Shown here: piece by piece, positions 12,705 through 24,158 of the stretch
Layout of the letters: every line of letters starts with the position of its first letter
How positions within the stretch are numbered: the stretch's first letter is position 1
NCBI GenBank assembly: GCA_026996295.1
Contig: JALWLL010000082.1
Location: forward strand, 2,815-38,971
DNA from: Sulfurimonas sp.
GTDB taxonomy: Bacteria > Campylobacterota > Campylobacteria > Campylobacterales > Sulfurimonadaceae
Direction of reading: 5' to 3'
Length of the DNA: 36,157 bases
Made by a program: the position numbers and the translations under genes
The notes under the pieces: generated by a model
Databases searched by the model: none
What the model was told of the DNA's origin: nothing
The model's input: the letters and a program-made list of their open reading frames with translations, nothing else

Positions 12705-14591
12705 ATGGCATTAGTGAAAAAAAACAGTTCTAGTTCATCTCCTGCAATGATGGCTTCGGGAGGAGACAAACGTAAACAAAGAACGCTGGCAAAACAACAG
12801 CAGATCAGTGAAAGCATTGCCGGTGTTTCGATGACAATTCTTGAGAATGCACAAGAGAGTGTCAGTGCTATTGAAGAGTTAAAATCATCGATGGAGCAGA
12901 TCGCTACAGCTGCAGAGGAAAACAGTGGAGCAAGTGAACAGGCCCTTGAAAATGTAAGGGGGATCAATTCTAACGTAAATAGAATGAACTCCACAATAGA
13001 TACCGTGATATCATCTACGCTTACAACGGGTGACAATATCATGGCTTCCGTTGAAAAAATAAACGACTCTGTAGGCAGAATGGCAACGGCGGTAAAGGTA
13101 GCTGAGGAGTCTTCAACAAAAAGTGAAGAGCTCAAAGAAAGTTCACAAAATATTGGTGATGCGGTTGGATTTATTGCGAAAATTGCAGACCAGACAAACC
13201 TTTTGGCGCTCAATGCTGCCATAGAAGCAAGTCGTGCAAAAGAGCATGGAAAAGGTTTTGCAGTTGTAGCAGATGAGACTCGTGCTCTTGCGGGTGAAAG
13301 TGAAAAAAATGCTGAATTTATCTCCGAACTTGTCAACAAAATACAAGAGAGTATTGATAATATCATTAAAAGTATAGGTTCGACTACTACCATTATTGCA
13401 AATAACGGTAAAAAAGGGAACGCACTAAGCCTCAAAATGGAGGAGCTTACAAAGATTGCGGTTTACTCTGTTGAAGCAGCACGCAGCGTGAATACATATA
13501 CACAAAGGCTTGGTGATTTTGCTTCCAAGATCAACAATGGTTCTCAGGATATTGCCGCTGCATCTGCGGAGATCGCACTCTCGGTGGAGAAAACACTTAA
13601 CGGTATTGATGTCCAATCAGATGCACTTGCGCAAACAGAAGATGATATCAAAGAACTTTCATCACTGGCAGATGAGCTTAAATACTCTACAGATACCATA
13701 AAATCCGCTGAAGATATAGCGCTTTCAGCTGATACTATCGGTGCTTCCATGGATGATATCCAAAATGCCCTTGAAGATGTTACCCAAGCACTCAATCAGA
13801 TCGAATCCTCTTCCCATACAACCAACCAAAGAGCATTGACCAACAAGGAGATGATAGAAGCGGGTATTGAAGCTGCAAAAGATATCGATAAGCTTATTGA
13901 GATCGCTCGCAGAAACTTTGACCTGCTAAAGGTTTCGTTTAACAGTGTTAAAAATACAGTAGCGGAGATTCGTGAAGCATTTAGTGGTTCCATAACACAA
14001 GGGAATGAAGCTGCAACGGAACTTAATGTTATTGTCAAAGAGACAAAAAGTGTTGATAAAACCGTTGGAAACATTTCAAACTCGATTGTTCAACTCAATA
14101 TGCTTGCTATCAGTGGTTCCATAGAAGCTGCTCGTGCCGGAGACTTTGGGAAAGGTTTTGCGGTTGTTAGTGCCGATATCAGAAACCTTGCAAAAGACTC
14201 TGAGAGCAATACTGAAAAGATCAATGATATTGTTGAGTCTATGAATTCTGAGATAGACACCGTTAAAACGGACTGGAACAATCTTCTTGATTCTCAGGCA
14301 CAAGAGCAGTCATCGATTGATGGGCTTATAAATGACATAACAAAAATTACAGATATGCTCGTGGATCTGCTTGACAGATATACCGGACTCAAAGTGATCA
14401 ATGATCAAAATCTTGAGGGGATGAATCAGGTGATGATAGGGATCAGTGAGATCCAAAAAGCGGTAGAACTTAGTGCTAGAAATGCGATGGAGTCACGTAA
14501 AGCGAGTGAGCTTATTATTGAGACTGTGTCACATATCGGTGAGGGTGTAGAGGAGTTGGCTGTCATGGCTGATGAACTTCAACAGGGATAA
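12705..14591 (+). CDS. Soluble chemoreceptor with two signalling-hairpin tips (DosM-like)
   Basis: A 628-residue methyl-accepting chemotaxis protein with no membrane segment and no recognisable ligand-binding domain. Two separate hairpin tips are visible: 162-196 (DQTNLLALNAAIEASRAKE, then HGKGFAVVADETRALA) and about 459-496 (QLNMLAISGSIEAARAG, then DFGKGFAVVSADIRNLA). The second is more diverged. Each is flanked by long heptad-rich coiled coil. Two tips in one chain is the layout of V. cholerae DosM, which holds the two layers of a cytoplasmic array together. The N-terminus is Ser-rich and basic (K5, K6, K22, R23, K24, R26, K30). Strong site GGGAAAGGA upstream. Methylation sites are likely in EE/QE pairs but not assigned. 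Confidence 0.92.
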   Translation: MALVKKNSSSSSPAMMASGGDKRKQRTLAKQQQISESIAGVSMTILENAQESVSAIEELKSSMEQIATAAEENSGASEQALENVRGINSNVNRMNSTIDTVISSTLTTGDNIMASVEKINDSVGRMATAVKVAEESSTKSEELKESSQNIGDAVGFIAKIADQTNLLALNAAIEASRAKEHGKGFAVVADETRALAGESEKNAEFISELVNKIQESIDNIIKSIGSTTTIIANNGKKGNALSLKMEELTKIAVYSVEAARSVNTYTQRLGDFASKINNGSQDIAAASAEIALSVEKTLNGIDVQSDALAQTEDDIKELSSLADELKYSTDTIKSAEDIALSADTIGASMDDIQNALEDVTQALNQIESSSHTTNQRALTNKEMIEAGIEAAKDIDKLIEIARRNFDLLKVSFNSVKNTVAEIREAFSGSITQGNEAATELNVIVKETKSVDKTVGNISNSIVQLNMLAISGSIEAARAGDFGKGFAVVSADIRNLAKDSESNTEKINDIVESMNSEIDTVKTDWNNLLDSQAQEQSSIDGLINDITKITDMLVDLLDRYTGLKVINDQNLEGMNQVMIGISEIQKAVELSARNAMESRKASELIIETVSHIGEGVEELAVMADELQQG

Positions 14592-14606: not shown

Positions 14607-15971
14607 ATGCAAATAGAAGAGATATTGATCATCAAAAACGGTTCTGAACATTATGGGATATCAACAGAAGATATTAACCAAATATCCAGAGTGCCTTCTT
14701 TGATGCCTCTTCCTCTGAGACCGGCAGGTGTCAGAGGACTTTGTGCTGTTGGCGGGAACATAGTGACTATGGTTGATATGAACCTTTTACTTGATATGAA
14801 CGAGGTTGATATTGAGTCAGATAAAAGCAGGTTACTGAGTTTAAATGCACAATACTCTTCAAACTCTTTGCTCGTAAGCGAGGTGTTTAATACTATTGAA
14901 GTCGATCAAAATAATATAGAATACATAGAGAACGAGAACGATCCTGTTGTTGCGATATATAAGCATGAAGATAAATTGATACAAGTTGTGGATTTAGAGC
15001 CTCTTTTTTCTAAAATCAACAGGGTAAATATTGAAGCCAAAGAGATCAAAAACGGTAAAGTTAAAAATGAGGTTGTCAAAGAGGAAGAATCAAACAGATT
15101 TTTAATATTTTCAATGTCCAATGAAAAGTTTGCCATAAATATAGAGTACTTAAGAGAGATTATTTTATCTGATATAGAGTATACAGAGATTATTGGAAGT
15201 TCAGAAGAGATTTTGGGACTTATCACTCTTCGAGATGAGCTGATCACAGTTTTAGATATGAGAAAATATTATAATTTTGATGCTATCAAAAAAGAGAGCA
15301 ACAGAATTTTGATCATCTCACATGCTAATAAGCAGATCGGTTTGTTGATAGATGAGATAATCGATATTAAAAATTTTCCTATATACAACATAGAGTATAT
15401 GAAAGAAAGATTTGAAGATAACAAAATTTCAGGTGTGATACATAACGGTGATTCTTTAATCTCCTTTTTTGATCATGAGGTTTTAGAGAAGATTTTTGAT
15501 GAGAATGAAACATTTATAGATATAAAAGATCAGCAAGATGATACTCAGGGTTCTGAGGATATAGCTATGGAAGTGATCGTTTTTAAACTTGCAGATAAAG
15601 AGTATGCTTTTGAAGTGGAGAATGTCGCCGAGATCATAGATGCGGTAGATACTACAAAAGTAGCATATACGGATGATTTTGTAGATGGTATTATAAATAT
15701 TAGAGGACAGATTATAACCATAGTTTCCTTGTTTGATAAATTAAATATAGAGACAAAGATAAGTGAAGATTCAAAAATAATTGTTTGTAGTTTACACGAT
15801 ACAAAAATAGGTTTTGTCGTGGACAGTGTAAGTGATATTCTCAATATAAAAAAGAGTGAACTAAGAGAGCAGGAGGATGAATTGTTCTCCAATGTTTTGC
15901 ATTTGAATAATGGAAAAAGATTAGTGTTATCGATGGATATAAACCAGATAATAGCGAGTGAGGAGATATAG
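14607..15971 (+). CDS. Triple-domain CheW scaffold protein
   Basis: A 454-residue protein built of three CheW-like domains in a row: about 1-135, 160-300 and 325-454. Each shows the pattern of a short strand, I..V..I, an RGL/LGLITLR/GIINIRGQ turn followed by ITVLDM or TIVSLF, and a second beta subdomain ending in DEIID or DSVSDIL. Linkers between domains are acidic or lysine-rich. A chain with three CheW units could bridge several CheA P5 domains or receptor tips in an array baseplate. Each domain has diverged, so not all need bind the same partner. It lies 15 nt after the receptor gene and overlaps cheB by 1 nt. Confidence 0.87.
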   Translation: MQIEEILIIKNGSEHYGISTEDINQISRVPSLMPLPLRPAGVRGLCAVGGNIVTMVDMNLLLDMNEVDIESDKSRLLSLNAQYSSNSLLVSEVFNTIEVDQNNIEYIENENDPVVAIYKHEDKLIQVVDLEPLFSKINRVNIEAKEIKNGKVKNEVVKEEESNRFLIFSMSNEKFAINIEYLREIILSDIEYTEIIGSSEEILGLITLRDELITVLDMRKYYNFDAIKKESNRILIISHANKQIGLLIDEIIDIKNFPIYNIEYMKERFEDNKISGVIHNGDSLISFFDHEVLEKIFDENETFIDIKDQQDDTQGSEDIAMEVIVFKLADKEYAFEVENVAEIIDAVDTTKVAYTDDFVDGIINIRGQIITIVSLFDKLNIETKISEDSKIIVCSLHDTKIGFVVDSVSDILNIKKSELREQEDELFSNVLHLNNGKRLVLSMDINQIIASEEI

Positions 15972-17035
15972 TGTCAAAAAAAGTACTTATAGTCGATGAT
16001 TCAGCATTAGTGAGAAAACAGTTAAGTGAGATGATTGCTACGCTTGGATTTGAGATCGATTTTGCAAAAAATGGTCAAGAGGCTGTGGATAAAGCAACAC
16101 AAGAGCAGTATGATGTTATTACCATGGATATCAATATGCCTGTTATGGACGGTATAGAAGCTGTACGCCAGATCATGCAAAAACGTCCAAGTGCCATTCT
16201 GATGATCAGCTCTTTAACAACAGGGGATGCTTCTATAACTATGGATGCTCTTGATCTTGGTGCTATTGACTATATAGCAAAGCCCGGAACAATGAATGTT
16301 GGTAAAAGGGAAAACAGGGATGATATTTTAGAAAAGGTGGAGTCTTTGAGCAAAATACCTCTTAGACGTCTGAAAAGACAAGCTTCAAGACCTGCCATAC
16401 GTGAGAGAAGAACTCCTCGTCCATCACGTGAAAGAAAAGTGCAGAGTGAAAGTTCAAAAGATATAGAAAAAGTGATCCTGATCGGTTCCTCTACAGGTGG
16501 ACCGGGTCTTATTGAGCAGATATGCTCTTCACTACCTGCAAACTATAAATATCCTGTATGTATAGTACAGCATATGCCTGAGCAGTTTACCCAGGCATTT
16601 GCACAGAGACTTGATCGTTCAAGTGCTCTGCCTATACATGAAAGCCAGCATAACATGGAAGTGCTTCCGGGCAATGTATATGTAGCCAGAGGCGGGGTTC
16701 ACATGCATTTTGCCAAAAAGGTATCAGGCAAGATAGTGATACGAGAAGATAAAAATAAAGGTGAAAACTTTTTTCAACCAAGTGTCAACGAGATGATGTT
16801 TTCTGCCTTGGAAGTCTTTAAACCTGCACAACTTGTCGGGGTGATCCTGACAGGAATCGGTGATGACGGTGCTGATGCAATGGTAAAGCTCAAGCAAGCA
16901 GGTGCCTATACTTTGGCTGAAAGTGAAGAAAGTGCTACTGTTTATGGTATGCCAAAAGAGGCATATGACAGAGGCGGTGTTATGGAACAACTTAATTTTA
17001 TGCAAATTTTGAAAAAAATTGCAACATTAAAGTAA
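15971..17035 (+). CDS. cheB: Chemotaxis methylesterase/glutamine deamidase CheB
   Basis: A 354-residue response regulator enzyme that removes receptor methyl groups. The receiver domain has D9/D10, phosphoacceptor D53 in MDINMPVMDG and K104. The methylesterase domain has the catalytic triad: S174 in GSSTGG, H201 in QHMPEQF and D299 in TGIGDDGA. The linker at 131-156 is strikingly basic, with ten Arg and two Lys in 26 residues, unlike most CheB linkers. Start is GTG overlapping the upstream stop, with AGGAG just before. No CheD gene is in the operon, so CheB may be the only deamidase. Confidence 0.95.
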   Translation: MSKKVLIVDDSALVRKQLSEMIATLGFEIDFAKNGQEAVDKATQEQYDVITMDINMPVMDGIEAVRQIMQKRPSAILMISSLTTGDASITMDALDLGAIDYIAKPGTMNVGKRENRDDILEKVESLSKIPLRRLKRQASRPAIRERRTPRPSRERKVQSESSKDIEKVILIGSSTGGPGLIEQICSSLPANYKYPVCIVQHMPEQFTQAFAQRLDRSSALPIHESQHNMEVLPGNVYVARGGVHMHFAKKVSGKIVIREDKNKGENFFQPSVNEMMFSALEVFKPAQLVGVILTGIGDDGADAMVKLKQAGAYTLAESEESATVYGMPKEAYDRGGVMEQLNFMQILKKIATLK

Positions 17036-17045
17036 GGAGACTGAG

Positions 17046-17669
17046 ATGGCTTTAGTTAAAAAGCATGAACAACAAGATGTTGAAGAGTTGCCGCAATTTG
17101 ATACGCTTGAAGATGCGATAGAGTTGTTTGAATCAGATGTAGATAATGAGATGAAAGATTATGTTGTTGAAGAGATTATTAAATTTCATAATGGTGCCAA
17201 ATATCTTATTTCATATATAAACAACGAAGATGCAGATAAAGGTATTTCAACAAAAGTGGCAACAGTTATAGCCAATATGGATCCAGAAGATGCTCCTATA
17301 GAAGAGATCATGGAGTTGTTAAAACTAAATAATGCTTATGTAAGAAACCTCGGTATCTCTATTCTCAGAGATTACGGAGAGGCGATCAAGTACTACATAG
17401 TAAAGTTTTTGATCGGAGATGACAGGGATTTGAGAATATTTGCTATCAATGTACTTGGTGATGTTAATTTTGCAGAATCAAGAGATATGCTATTAGAGCT
17501 TTTAGAAAAAGAGGATGATGTCAATGTCGCAATGACTGCCGTTGATTATCTGGCAGAGATCGGAGAAGAGGAAGATATAGCTCTTCTGGAATCTTTAAAA
17601 GAGCGTTTTAGCAGTGAGTTCTATGTAGAGTTTGCAGTGGATAGCGCAATAAAAATGATAAAGGGTTAA
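17046..17669 (+). CDS. HEAT-repeat protein of the chemosensory operon
   Basis: A 207-residue acidic helical protein. Residues 85-200 show HEAT-like helical pairs with the repeated pattern of a helix, short turn and LG.../A..yL.eiG (for example AYVRNLGISILRDYG, LRIFAINVLGDV, NVAMTAVDYLAEIGEE). The N-terminal 40 residues are separate and start MALVKK, the same six residues that start the soluble receptor of this operon, with different synonymous codons. HEAT proteins are protein-binding scaffolds; here it may link the array to CheB, CheR or ParA. Function is not known to me. The gene sits between cheB and cheR with gaps of 10 and 3 nt. Confidence 0.8.
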   Translation: MALVKKHEQQDVEELPQFDTLEDAIELFESDVDNEMKDYVVEEIIKFHNGAKYLISYINNEDADKGISTKVATVIANMDPEDAPIEEIMELLKLNNAYVRNLGISILRDYGEAIKYYIVKFLIGDDRDLRIFAINVLGDVNFAESRDMLLELLEKEDDVNVAMTAVDYLAEIGEEEDIALLESLKERFSSEFYVEFAVDSAIKMIKG

Positions 17670-17672
17670 GGT

Positions 17673-18503
17673 ATGGCATATCTTTTATCAAAAGAGAATT
17701 TCTCCAAGATTGGTGAGTTTATTTATAGAAAAAGCGGTATCTATCTTGAAGAAGATAAGCACTATGAGAAGTTGGCAAAATATATAGATAAACGCTCGGC
17801 AGAGTTGGGCTTTGATAATTTTAGAAAATACTTTTTTAAACTTCGTTTTGATGATAAAGAGGGTGCAGAGTTTCAAGAGCTTATGAATGCTATTACTGTA
17901 AATGAAACATATTTCTTTAGAGAAAAAGACCAGTTTGAAGTCCTTGTTAACAGAATACTTCCCGAGCTTCACAAAACGATGCCATCTTCAAGGCCACTGA
18001 GGATTTTATCTTCTCCCTGCTCAACAGGGGAGGAACCCTACTCGATCATACTCCATATAGTGGAAGAGGGGAGTGTTGTGGAGCAAAGAGACATAGAGGT
18101 TGTCGGTATCGACATAGATTCAACAGTTATAGAAAAAGCAAAAGCAGCAAAATATACGGAGCGTTCAGTTCATGCGATTCCAAAAAATATTTTAAACAAA
18201 TGGTTTAAAAAGAAAAGTCTCGGGTATGAACTTGGTGAAGAACTACAGGGAACAGTGGACTTTCAGGTAGCAAATGTTTTTGATAAAACACAGATGAGAA
18301 AACTTGGAAAGTTTGATGTGATCTTTTCAAGAAATATGCTTATCTATTTTGATGATGCTTCCCGTAAAGAGGTTGCAATGACATTTTACGATATGTTAAA
18401 CCCGGGAGGGTATGTTCTTTTAGGACATGCAGAGTATATGAGCCGTATCGTTTCTGTATTTAAAGCAAAAAAAATCGACAATACATTGATATACCAAAAA
18501 TAG
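17673..18503 (+). CDS. cheR: Chemotaxis protein methyltransferase CheR
   Basis: A 276-residue SAM-dependent enzyme that methylates receptor glutamates. The small N-terminal helical domain spans about 1-75. The catalytic domain carries ITVNETYFFRE near residue 75, SSPCSTGEEPYSI (SAM motif I region) near 110, the acidic VVGIDIDSTVI near 140, the FDVIFSRNMLIYFD near 215 and LNPGGYVLLGHAE near 240, all typical CheR motifs. The protein is otherwise standard and has no TPR extension or pentapeptide-tether features. Start ATG 3 nt after the HEAT gene, with AAGG before it. Confidence 0.95.
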   Translation: MAYLLSKENFSKIGEFIYRKSGIYLEEDKHYEKLAKYIDKRSAELGFDNFRKYFFKLRFDDKEGAEFQELMNAITVNETYFFREKDQFEVLVNRILPELHKTMPSSRPLRILSSPCSTGEEPYSIILHIVEEGSVVEQRDIEVVGIDIDSTVIEKAKAAKYTERSVHAIPKNILNKWFKKKSLGYELGEELQGTVDFQVANVFDKTQMRKLGKFDVIFSRNMLIYFDDASRKEVAMTFYDMLNPGGYVLLGHAEYMSRIVSVFKAKKIDNTLIYQK

Positions 18504-23167: not shown

Positions 23168-23437
23168 ATGGCAATTACATATGAAGCGAATGAAGCAATC
23201 TTTTCATCAGTGATATATGAAGATGAGATTCCTAAGTTCAGGGATTTTTTACAAGAAAAAGCACCGGATGAAGTTCTTTTGAACTTTGAAGAGTGTGAAG
23301 ATGTTCATTTGGCTGTGTTGCAGCATATTATGGCATATAAAAAAAATTATACCTGTACATATAAGTTTGGTAATGAAAAAAAGCTCTTTGAGACAGTTCT
23401 AAAAGGATTTGATACGAGTGAAAACCATTGTAATTAG
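23168..23437 (+). CDS. Small protein overlapping parA, possibly STAS-like
   Basis: An 89-residue soluble protein. The alternation of predicted strands and helices (IFSSVIYEDEIPKFRDFL, DEVLLNFEECEDVHLAVL) resembles a compact alpha/beta fold of STAS type, and the stretch NFEECEDVHLAVLQHI looks like a conserved core, but I do not recognise a named family. It has a good AGGAGAT ribosome binding site and its last 20 nt overlap the parA coding region, so the two are translationally coupled. Context makes a regulator or adaptor for the ParA ATPase, or for the array, the best guess. Confidence 0.65.
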   Translation: MAITYEANEAIFSSVIYEDEIPKFRDFLQEKAPDEVLLNFEECEDVHLAVLQHIMAYKKNYTCTYKFGNEKKLFETVLKGFDTSENHCN

Positions 23438-24158
23438 TAATCGTAAAGGTGGTTCTGCAAAAACAACGACAGCTGTTAATATTGCAAGTGGTTTGGCAAA
23501 ACAGGGTTCTGTGTTACTTTTAGATTTTGACACACAGGGACATGCTTCCATCGGTGTCGGTTGTGAACCAAATGAGCAACTGGGTGTTCATTCTATTTTT
23601 ACGGGAACAACGCTTAGTGAGACCTTTATCCCTACAGTTCATGAAAACCTGACACTCTCTCCCGCACTCGCTTTTTTTGATGTATATGAATACTCTGATC
23701 TAAGAGGAGTACTGAAAAGTCGTTTTAAAAGGGAAAAAATAGCAGAGTTTTTTGACTATTGTGTGATCGATACTCCCCCAACCTTTGATGCACTTTTAAA
23801 AAATTCCTTGGAAGTTGCCGACAGTGTTGTAATCCCTTTTGTTCCACACCATTTAGGTGTAGTTGCAGTGGGACAGATGCTACGTGCCGTGTATCAAAGT
23901 GCTTCTCATTTTGAGCGTGAAATCGCGGATGTGTCTATTTTGCCGGTAATGTATAACCCTCATATCAATGAGCATAAAGACTCAATCGCCAAAGTGAAAA
24001 CATCTTTTGGTGAAGAAAAACTGCTCTCACCCATAGGTGTAGATATTAAACTCGCACAACAGTTTGAATCAGGCTCCCCCATCATTTTGGATACAAAACG
24101 ATCTAAAGGGCTCAAAGATTATCAACGATGTGTTGCAGAATTACTTAAAAGACTGTAG
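23418..24158 (+). CDS. ParA/MinD-type ATPase of the chemosensory operon
   Basis: A 246-residue deviant-Walker ATPase. The A motif is NRKGGSAKTTTAVN, with signature K10 and K15; the usual GKTT glycine is Ala here. Walker A' is LLLDFDTQG and Walker B lies in YCVIDTPPTFDA. There is no N-terminal DNA-binding domain and no ParB or parS nearby, so it is an orphan of the type that positions cargo (R. sphaeroides PpfA for cytoplasmic chemoreceptor clusters, Vibrio ParC for polar ones). The start chosen is GTG 23418, 10 nt after AAAAGGA and giving MKTIVISNRKGG; the TTG at 23409 is too close to that site. Likely cargo is the soluble array. Confidence 0.88.
   Translation: MKTIVISNRKGGSAKTTTAVNIASGLAKQGSVLLLDFDTQGHASIGVGCEPNEQLGVHSIFTGTTLSETFIPTVHENLTLSPALAFFDVYEYSDLRGVLKSRFKREKIAEFFDYCVIDTPPTFDALLKNSLEVADSVVIPFVPHHLGVVAVGQMLRAVYQSASHFEREIADVSILPVMYNPHINEHKDSIAKVKTSFGEEKLLSPIGVDIKLAQQFESGSPIILDTKRSKGLKDYQRCVAELLKRL

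Follow-up and report, generated by a model that had tools for sequence, protein, structure and literature searches.

F9-class chemosensory systems are recognised by a receptor with tandem signalling domains (DosM) and a triple CheW protein (PMC9321776, PMC7534058). A purely cytoplasmic, two-layered array is known for V. cholerae (PMC7534058); the system described here is known from its genes alone. Docking peptides on receptor termini are already familiar, the tether of CheR and CheB being a C-terminal pentapeptide that most commonly has W at position 2 and F at position 5 (PMC7390727). N-terminal tails that activate ParA or bind DNA are familiar as well (PMC7993993, PMC12462528, PMC12077210). 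In the cytoplasmic receptor FrzCD, positive residues within the first 30 positions bind DNA, and changing K9, K13, R15, R17 and K18 to glutamate abolishes the binding (PMC12077210). Among HEAT-repeat proteins, OE2401F, a halobacterial taxis protein of the HEAT_PBS type, has CheD and OE2402F as interaction partners (PMC2666748).

An F9-class operon with one peptide on two proteins

The DNA analysed, a stretch of 36,157 nucleotides referred to here as the window, comes from a Sulfurimonas-like genome, its nearest named relatives being mostly Sulfurimonas MAGs. It holds an F9-class cytoplasmic chemosensory operon with a DosM-like receptor (Table 1). Both MCPsignal matches and the structure model give this receptor two tandem signalling domains, and CheW3 has three CheW domains. 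The gene order is PAS, double-tip receptor, triple CheW, CheB, HEAT, CheR, CheY and a coiled-coil-like protein, followed by CheY, CheA, CheW-CZB, a small protein, ParA, a histidine kinase and a response regulator. The HEAT assignment combines a HEAT_2 score of 54 bits, against a cut-off of 27.7, with an all-helical repeat model; for the receptor and the HEAT protein NCBIfam returned nothing but sub-cut-off matches. Like the window protein, OE2401F is a HEAT-repeat protein from a chemotaxis gene region, in that case an archaeal one (PMC2666748). The small protein (23168-23437) is without a Pfam match; its proteobacterial counterpart, located after CheA (L201:12818-13057), has a sub-threshold match to STAS_2 (E 0.037).

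Table 1. Coordinates of the features discussed. Positions refer to the window unless a locus is named.
Feature	Position	Strand	Basis or remark
N-terminal hexapeptide MALVKK of the DosM-like double-tip receptor	12705..12722	+	start codons; conserved in orthologues
Variable Ser/Gly-rich linker, receptor residues 7-20, from tail to first helix	12723..12764	+	pLDDT about 39 for residues 1-20
N-terminal hexapeptide MALVKK of the HEAT protein	17046..17063	+	start codons; alignments
DosM-like cytoplasmic receptor with two signalling tips	12705..14591	+	MCPsignal in two stretches; four-helix model
Receptor midplane break, residues 326-330, inside LADELKxSTDxxKSAEDIA	13680..13694	+	alignment and model
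CheW3, three CheW domains, F9 signature	14607..15971	+	domain search
CheB	15971..17035	+	domain search
HEAT-repeat protein between cheB and cheR	17046..17669	+	HEAT_2; helical model
CheR	17673..18503	+	domain search
ParA-family ATPase, docking partner put forward in the preliminary description; unsupported	23409..24158	+	homologue comparison
Reduced-cluster middle protein	L230:9695-10235, L231:10389-10929, L233:10626-11166, L237:4218-4776		174-182 residues from the M[AT]LKK start

Reading of the two start sequences confirms what the preliminary description had reported: receptor and HEAT protein both open with MALVKK and then part immediately. The receptor begins ATG GCA TTA GTG AAA AAA (MALVKKNSSSSS...) and the HEAT protein ATG GCT TTA GTT AAA AAG (MALVKKHEQQDV...). 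Past the ATG the two genes differ at three of five codons, in each case synonymously, and agree in TTA and the first AAA. These synonymous differences rule out a recent DNA copy as the origin of the shared tail, an origin that the preliminary description had likewise dismissed. The span it had assigned to the HEAT start, 17046-17075, covers ten codons and extends beyond the hexapeptide. In HEAT alignments of 44 and 71 rows K5 is invariant and A2 and L3 are conserved in at least 90% of the sequences, as is H7 in the 44-row alignment; receptor residues 13-24 show low conservation.

Conservation of the tail within and beyond the phylum

Protein starts were compared in 66 related loci. Six of these provide no usable receptor start (five are without a receptor and one has a fragment), and a start was counted only if it lay within 8 codons of the aligned position. 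The home genome and G196, where HEAT is in two fragments, stand outside the set; one of the two copies in G042 was used. With motif widths chosen after the sequences were seen, MAL[VILM][KR] begins 57 of 60 DosM-like receptors and 62 of 66 HEAT proteins. The N-termini are thus jointly conserved in both orthologue sets, the point on which the preliminary description had asked for a check. The strict form, MAL[VILM][KR][KR], is present in 51/60 and 48/66, respectively. None of the 691 starts of thirteen other operon proteins from the same loci carries MAL[VILM][KR].

A set of named genomes, partly overlapping the 66 loci and with receptor starts allowed up to 12 codons from the aligned position, has the strict motif in 55/68 receptors and 55/78 HEAT proteins. 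Synonymous codons are in use at positions 2-6, several of them at most positions; since the motif is kept while its codons vary, the constraint acts on the protein. The second residue is always A, G, S, T or P (68/68 receptors, 78/78 HEAT proteins). A small residue at position 2 is also frequent in other proteins of the operon, such as H89 (63/63) and CheY1 (77/78). In the deep relatives L173, L176 and L177 the true HEAT proteins start with MALKK. Loci L065 and L091 have the PAS-DosM-CheW3-CheB block downstream of ParA rather than upstream of HEAT; their tails are MALINK/MALIKN and MPLINK/MAILKT.

At the DNA level, the pattern ATGGCNYTNDTNARRARR has four matches in the 2.1-Mb home genome. Two are the receptor/HEAT pair and the other two have no recognisable gene start; the tag is thus almost unique in the genome and its double occurrence more than a coincidence. 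The degenerate pattern encodes MA[LF][VILMF][KR][KR] with AAR/AGR codons only, and arginines written CGN are missed; in 60 genomes from the genus it has about 1-2 matches each, F9 pairs included. Covariation of the receptor and HEAT tails, measured by a partial Mantel test, yielded a partial r of 0.27 (0/500 permutations). HEAT against CheY2 gave the same r, and several other controls were also low in permutations. Because controls correlate too, the test is not decisive and the covariation is only suggestive.

Translated searches of a plasmid collection identified F9 clusters outside the phylum, in Methylobacterium, Methylosinus, Azospirillum, Sphaerotilus and Eleftheria. Eleven were read. 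Among the matches listed, the DosM proteins are about 28-36% and the HEAT proteins 26-34% identical to those of the window. Receptor tails are MALIKK (five clusters), MALVKK (two), MPLVKK, MALVTK, MSLVRK and MTIVKK; HEAT tails are MALVKA (two), MGLVKK (two), MALVRR, MGLRKS, MALTKA, MPIRKA, MGLVRK, MALVKP and MGLLKK. Pairs such as MALVKK/MALVKA, MALIKK/MGLVKK and MPLVKK/MALVRR result. The strict motif is found in 7/11 receptors and 1/11 HEAT proteins, the remainder being variants. In both proteins the tail is followed by a variable linker, which is long in Azospirillum. The annotated start of the Methylobacterium currus HEAT protein (L195:13785-13845) lies 20 codons late, and the upstream frame reads MALVRR.

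Within the phylum, a profile of the DosM N-terminal helix retrieved further DosM-like receptors from other Campylobacterota families. The HEAT profile found nothing outside the window's family in 397 phylum genomes and had no match in six genomes carrying DosM; a CheW3 search at 1e-30 produced no further systems in the 397. Four reduced clusters of one family (L230, L231, L233 and L237) consist of DosM, CheW3, CheB and CheR plus a protein between cheB and cheR, with no match to CheA, ParA or CheY beside them. Their receptors start with MAFKQH (L230, L231, L233) or MGFIKK and their middle protein with MALKK or MTLKK. Compared with HEAT, the middle protein scores an hhalign probability of 8% and is therefore only position-equivalent to it; its first 114 residues match no HEAT family in Pfam.

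The tag is kept in most lineages that have both partners, and in one it fades in both together: in L235 the basic pair is gone from the two proteins (MGFVSL, MFKGFE). The middle protein of L235 is also the only tail read in which position 2 is not a small residue. In L236, whose cluster is incomplete, the start codon is GTG and the tail reads MGFINL. No HEAT gene was found in L228 and L229, whose receptors carry the weakened tails MSFIRE and MAFVKS; HEAT is therefore not the sole reason for the tail. L232 and L234 are second DosM-CheW3 pairs, apart from CheB/CheR, and their receptors start with MGFIKKH, nearer the canonical form than the tails of the first DosM copies. Two weak matches to the DosM profile, L238 and L239, resemble ordinary MCPs and were excluded as F9 systems. 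A CheW3 match in L187 (G099:C1:385734-387095) has a frame that is open except for a single in-frame TAG.

Predicted placement of the tails

Both tails are disordered in AlphaFold2 models. That of the HEAT protein (mean pLDDT 90) has helices from residue 21 onwards, and its first ten residues average 50; the monomer model does not place the tail with confidence. In fold it most resembles alphaRep and designed armadillo proteins; several of the armadillo structures contain (KR)n or (RR)n peptides. HEAT bodies have net charges of -8 to -32 in 71 relatives. The receptor model (mean pLDDT 85) predicts helices at residues 21-181, 184-325, 331-477 and 482-627. By their lengths these helices would form two back-to-back hairpins, bringing the N-terminal tail and the C-terminus together with the 326-330 break near the middle of the rod. 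Such an arrangement agrees with V. cholerae DosM, which is described as a rod bearing signalling domains at both ends (PMC7534058). The receptor tail may then leave the rod at the midplane of a two-layered array. At 20 residues it is probably too short for a baseplate many nanometres away, which favours a site at the midplane. The segment at the joint, LADELKxSTDxxKSAE, is conserved across phyla and eroded in the reduced clusters.

Readings of the shared peptide

The preliminary description had proposed that the tails bind or stimulate the ParA of the operon, the array and the HEAT protein riding on the nucleoid. ParA belongs to the window operon and was detected in 59/66 loci, the seven others being short or incomplete stretches. 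Moreover, short positively charged N-terminal extensions are known to activate ParA and MinD; those of ParB, MinE, ParG, PomX, TlpT and McdB resemble the tag as short positive stretches on proteins of large complexes. However, the activating residues named for these extensions lie at positions 13, 15 and 21, not 5-6 (PMC7993993, PMC12462528), whereas the tag is basic at 5-6, has a short hydrophobic-basic core and persists without F9-type ParA. Of the eleven proteobacterial clusters, all with a form of the tag on both proteins, nine have no ParA annotated in their stretch, although the stretches end near the cluster and the plasmid gene table is incomplete; the two with ParA are from Methylobacterium and Methylosinus. 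In L176, within Campylobacterota, the histidine kinase comes immediately after a small STAS-like gene, without an intervening ParA, and the tail is kept. The reduced clusters keep their tails in genomes without F9-type ParA. Six DosM genomes from four other Campylobacterota families have best ParA homologues of about 31-33% identity, the level of the home genome's second ParA, compared with 88-89% in three close relatives; most DosM proteins of these families keep a variant of the tail. As the six genomes do carry other ParA homologues, only F9-type ParA is excluded by this comparison. A cognate ParA is thus not encoded everywhere the peptide is conserved. The tag does not need the operon ParA, and a general chromosomal ParA is a possible substitute. 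On the evidence of the proteobacterial stretches, L176 and the six DosM genomes, docking to ParA was set aside as the main reading, and we now hold it to be improbable.

A tether for CheR and/or CheB, of the NWETF kind but N-terminal, with the HEAT copy bringing or sequestering the enzymes, fits the gene order: the HEAT gene is flanked by cheB and cheR in the window, in almost every family locus and in 11/11 proteobacterial clusters, a tagged protein takes this place in the four reduced clusters, and CheB and CheR are also present in L228 and L229. The C-terminal pentapeptides are an established precedent, and NWETF of Tar and Tsr is, like the tag, a short conserved peptide joined by a linker to a flexible receptor end. 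Yet the pentapeptide is mostly acidic and its site on CheR positively charged (PMC7390727), which makes a basic tail unlikely to use that site. The tag also differs in being N-terminal and in occurring on a second, non-receptor protein, whose need for it a tether leaves unexplained. In most clusters tested CheB and CheR carry little net charge, and the DosM C-terminus (ADELQQG in the window, similar or unrelated elsewhere) lacks W and F at the pentapeptide positions. We consider such a tether unlikely. Anchoring to the nucleoid by direct DNA binding has a precedent in FrzCD, also a cytoplasmic receptor with a basic N-terminus (PMC12077210), and the receptor has a basic stretch, DKRRQRTLAK, past its linker. 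But the tag is much shorter than the FrzCD tail and keeps just 1-2 basic residues, while hydrophobic residues at positions 3-4, needless for binding by charge alone, are conserved. It is carried, too, by an acidic partner: in the window the HEAT tail runs into acidic sequence and the HEAT body is net negative. Some tails, those of L235 and the MAFKQH receptors, are not clearly basic, and DNA anchoring seems to us hardly probable. The two N-termini might, lastly, have no function in common, each being favoured independently by translation initiation or Met removal and alike by chance. The small position-2 residues elsewhere in the operon would suit this idea; the absence of the motif from the other operon proteins, the varying synonymous codons and the retention of the tail by both proteins in three bacterial classes with very different DNA make it a poor prospect.

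Joint conservation, disorder, a following linker and a small second residue are traits of docking peptides. We think it probable that MALVKK is one, N-terminal and shared by the DosM-like receptor and the HEAT protein of F9 arrays, with a putative partner. The suggestion of a shared docking tag has accordingly held up, the tail being conserved jointly within the family and across phyla; as to its partner, another array protein is now the better half of the original proposal, the operon ParA having found no support. Position 2 suggests that Met is removed and that the working end would be a free [A/G/S/P/T]-[L/I/F]-hydrophobic-basic N-terminus. The corresponding Met-less tails are ALVKKHEQQDVE and ALVKKNSSSSS. 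The HEAT protein would copy the receptor tail and, by imitating it, would use the same docking site at the midplane. It would thereby be held in the array, or would compete with the receptor tail for that site. Counting against this reading are the weakened tails of L228 and L229, the low-confidence placement of the tail in the HEAT monomer model and the reduced clusters, whose middle protein cannot be recognised as HEAT.

The docking site most likely belongs to a core F9 protein near the midplane. Our tentative first candidate is the groove of the HEAT protein. Its acidic body resembles armadillo and alphaRep scaffolds, some of them solved with basic peptides. Importin-alpha has a basic N-terminal tail that fits its own armadillo groove and gates the protein. 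Like the HEAT protein it is a helical-repeat protein whose own basic tail resembles that of its ligand; homology is not claimed, and groove binding is putative here. Next we would place the DosM midplane joint, possible but uncertain, and then CheR or CheB, which is more doubtful. CheW3 or CheA is an unlikely site, some other protein is equally so, and ParA a very improbable one. A bolder version, which we put forward as speculation by analogy, is that the Met-processed [A/G/S]-L-V-K-K end serves as an N-terminal zip code for the array midplane. The HEAT protein would be an adaptor whose tail fills the pocket until displaced by the receptor tail, and this exchange might gate assembly or adaptation.

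The open-licence literature searched yielded no report of a single peptide common to receptor and HEAT protein in F9 systems. No paper listed there brings DosM together with 'HEAT repeat', a search with the tail letters gave nothing relevant among the matches listed, and a word search of the F9 papers PMC9321776 and PMC7534058 turned up no HEAT protein. F9 arrays have no established signal input, no known function and no membrane support (PMC7534058, PMC9321776). A tag carried by both the scaffold receptor and a HEAT protein brings a new component of these arrays into view, and may offer a peptide-sized handle on the occupants of the midplane and on the assembly or adaptation of arrays that are not membrane-bound.
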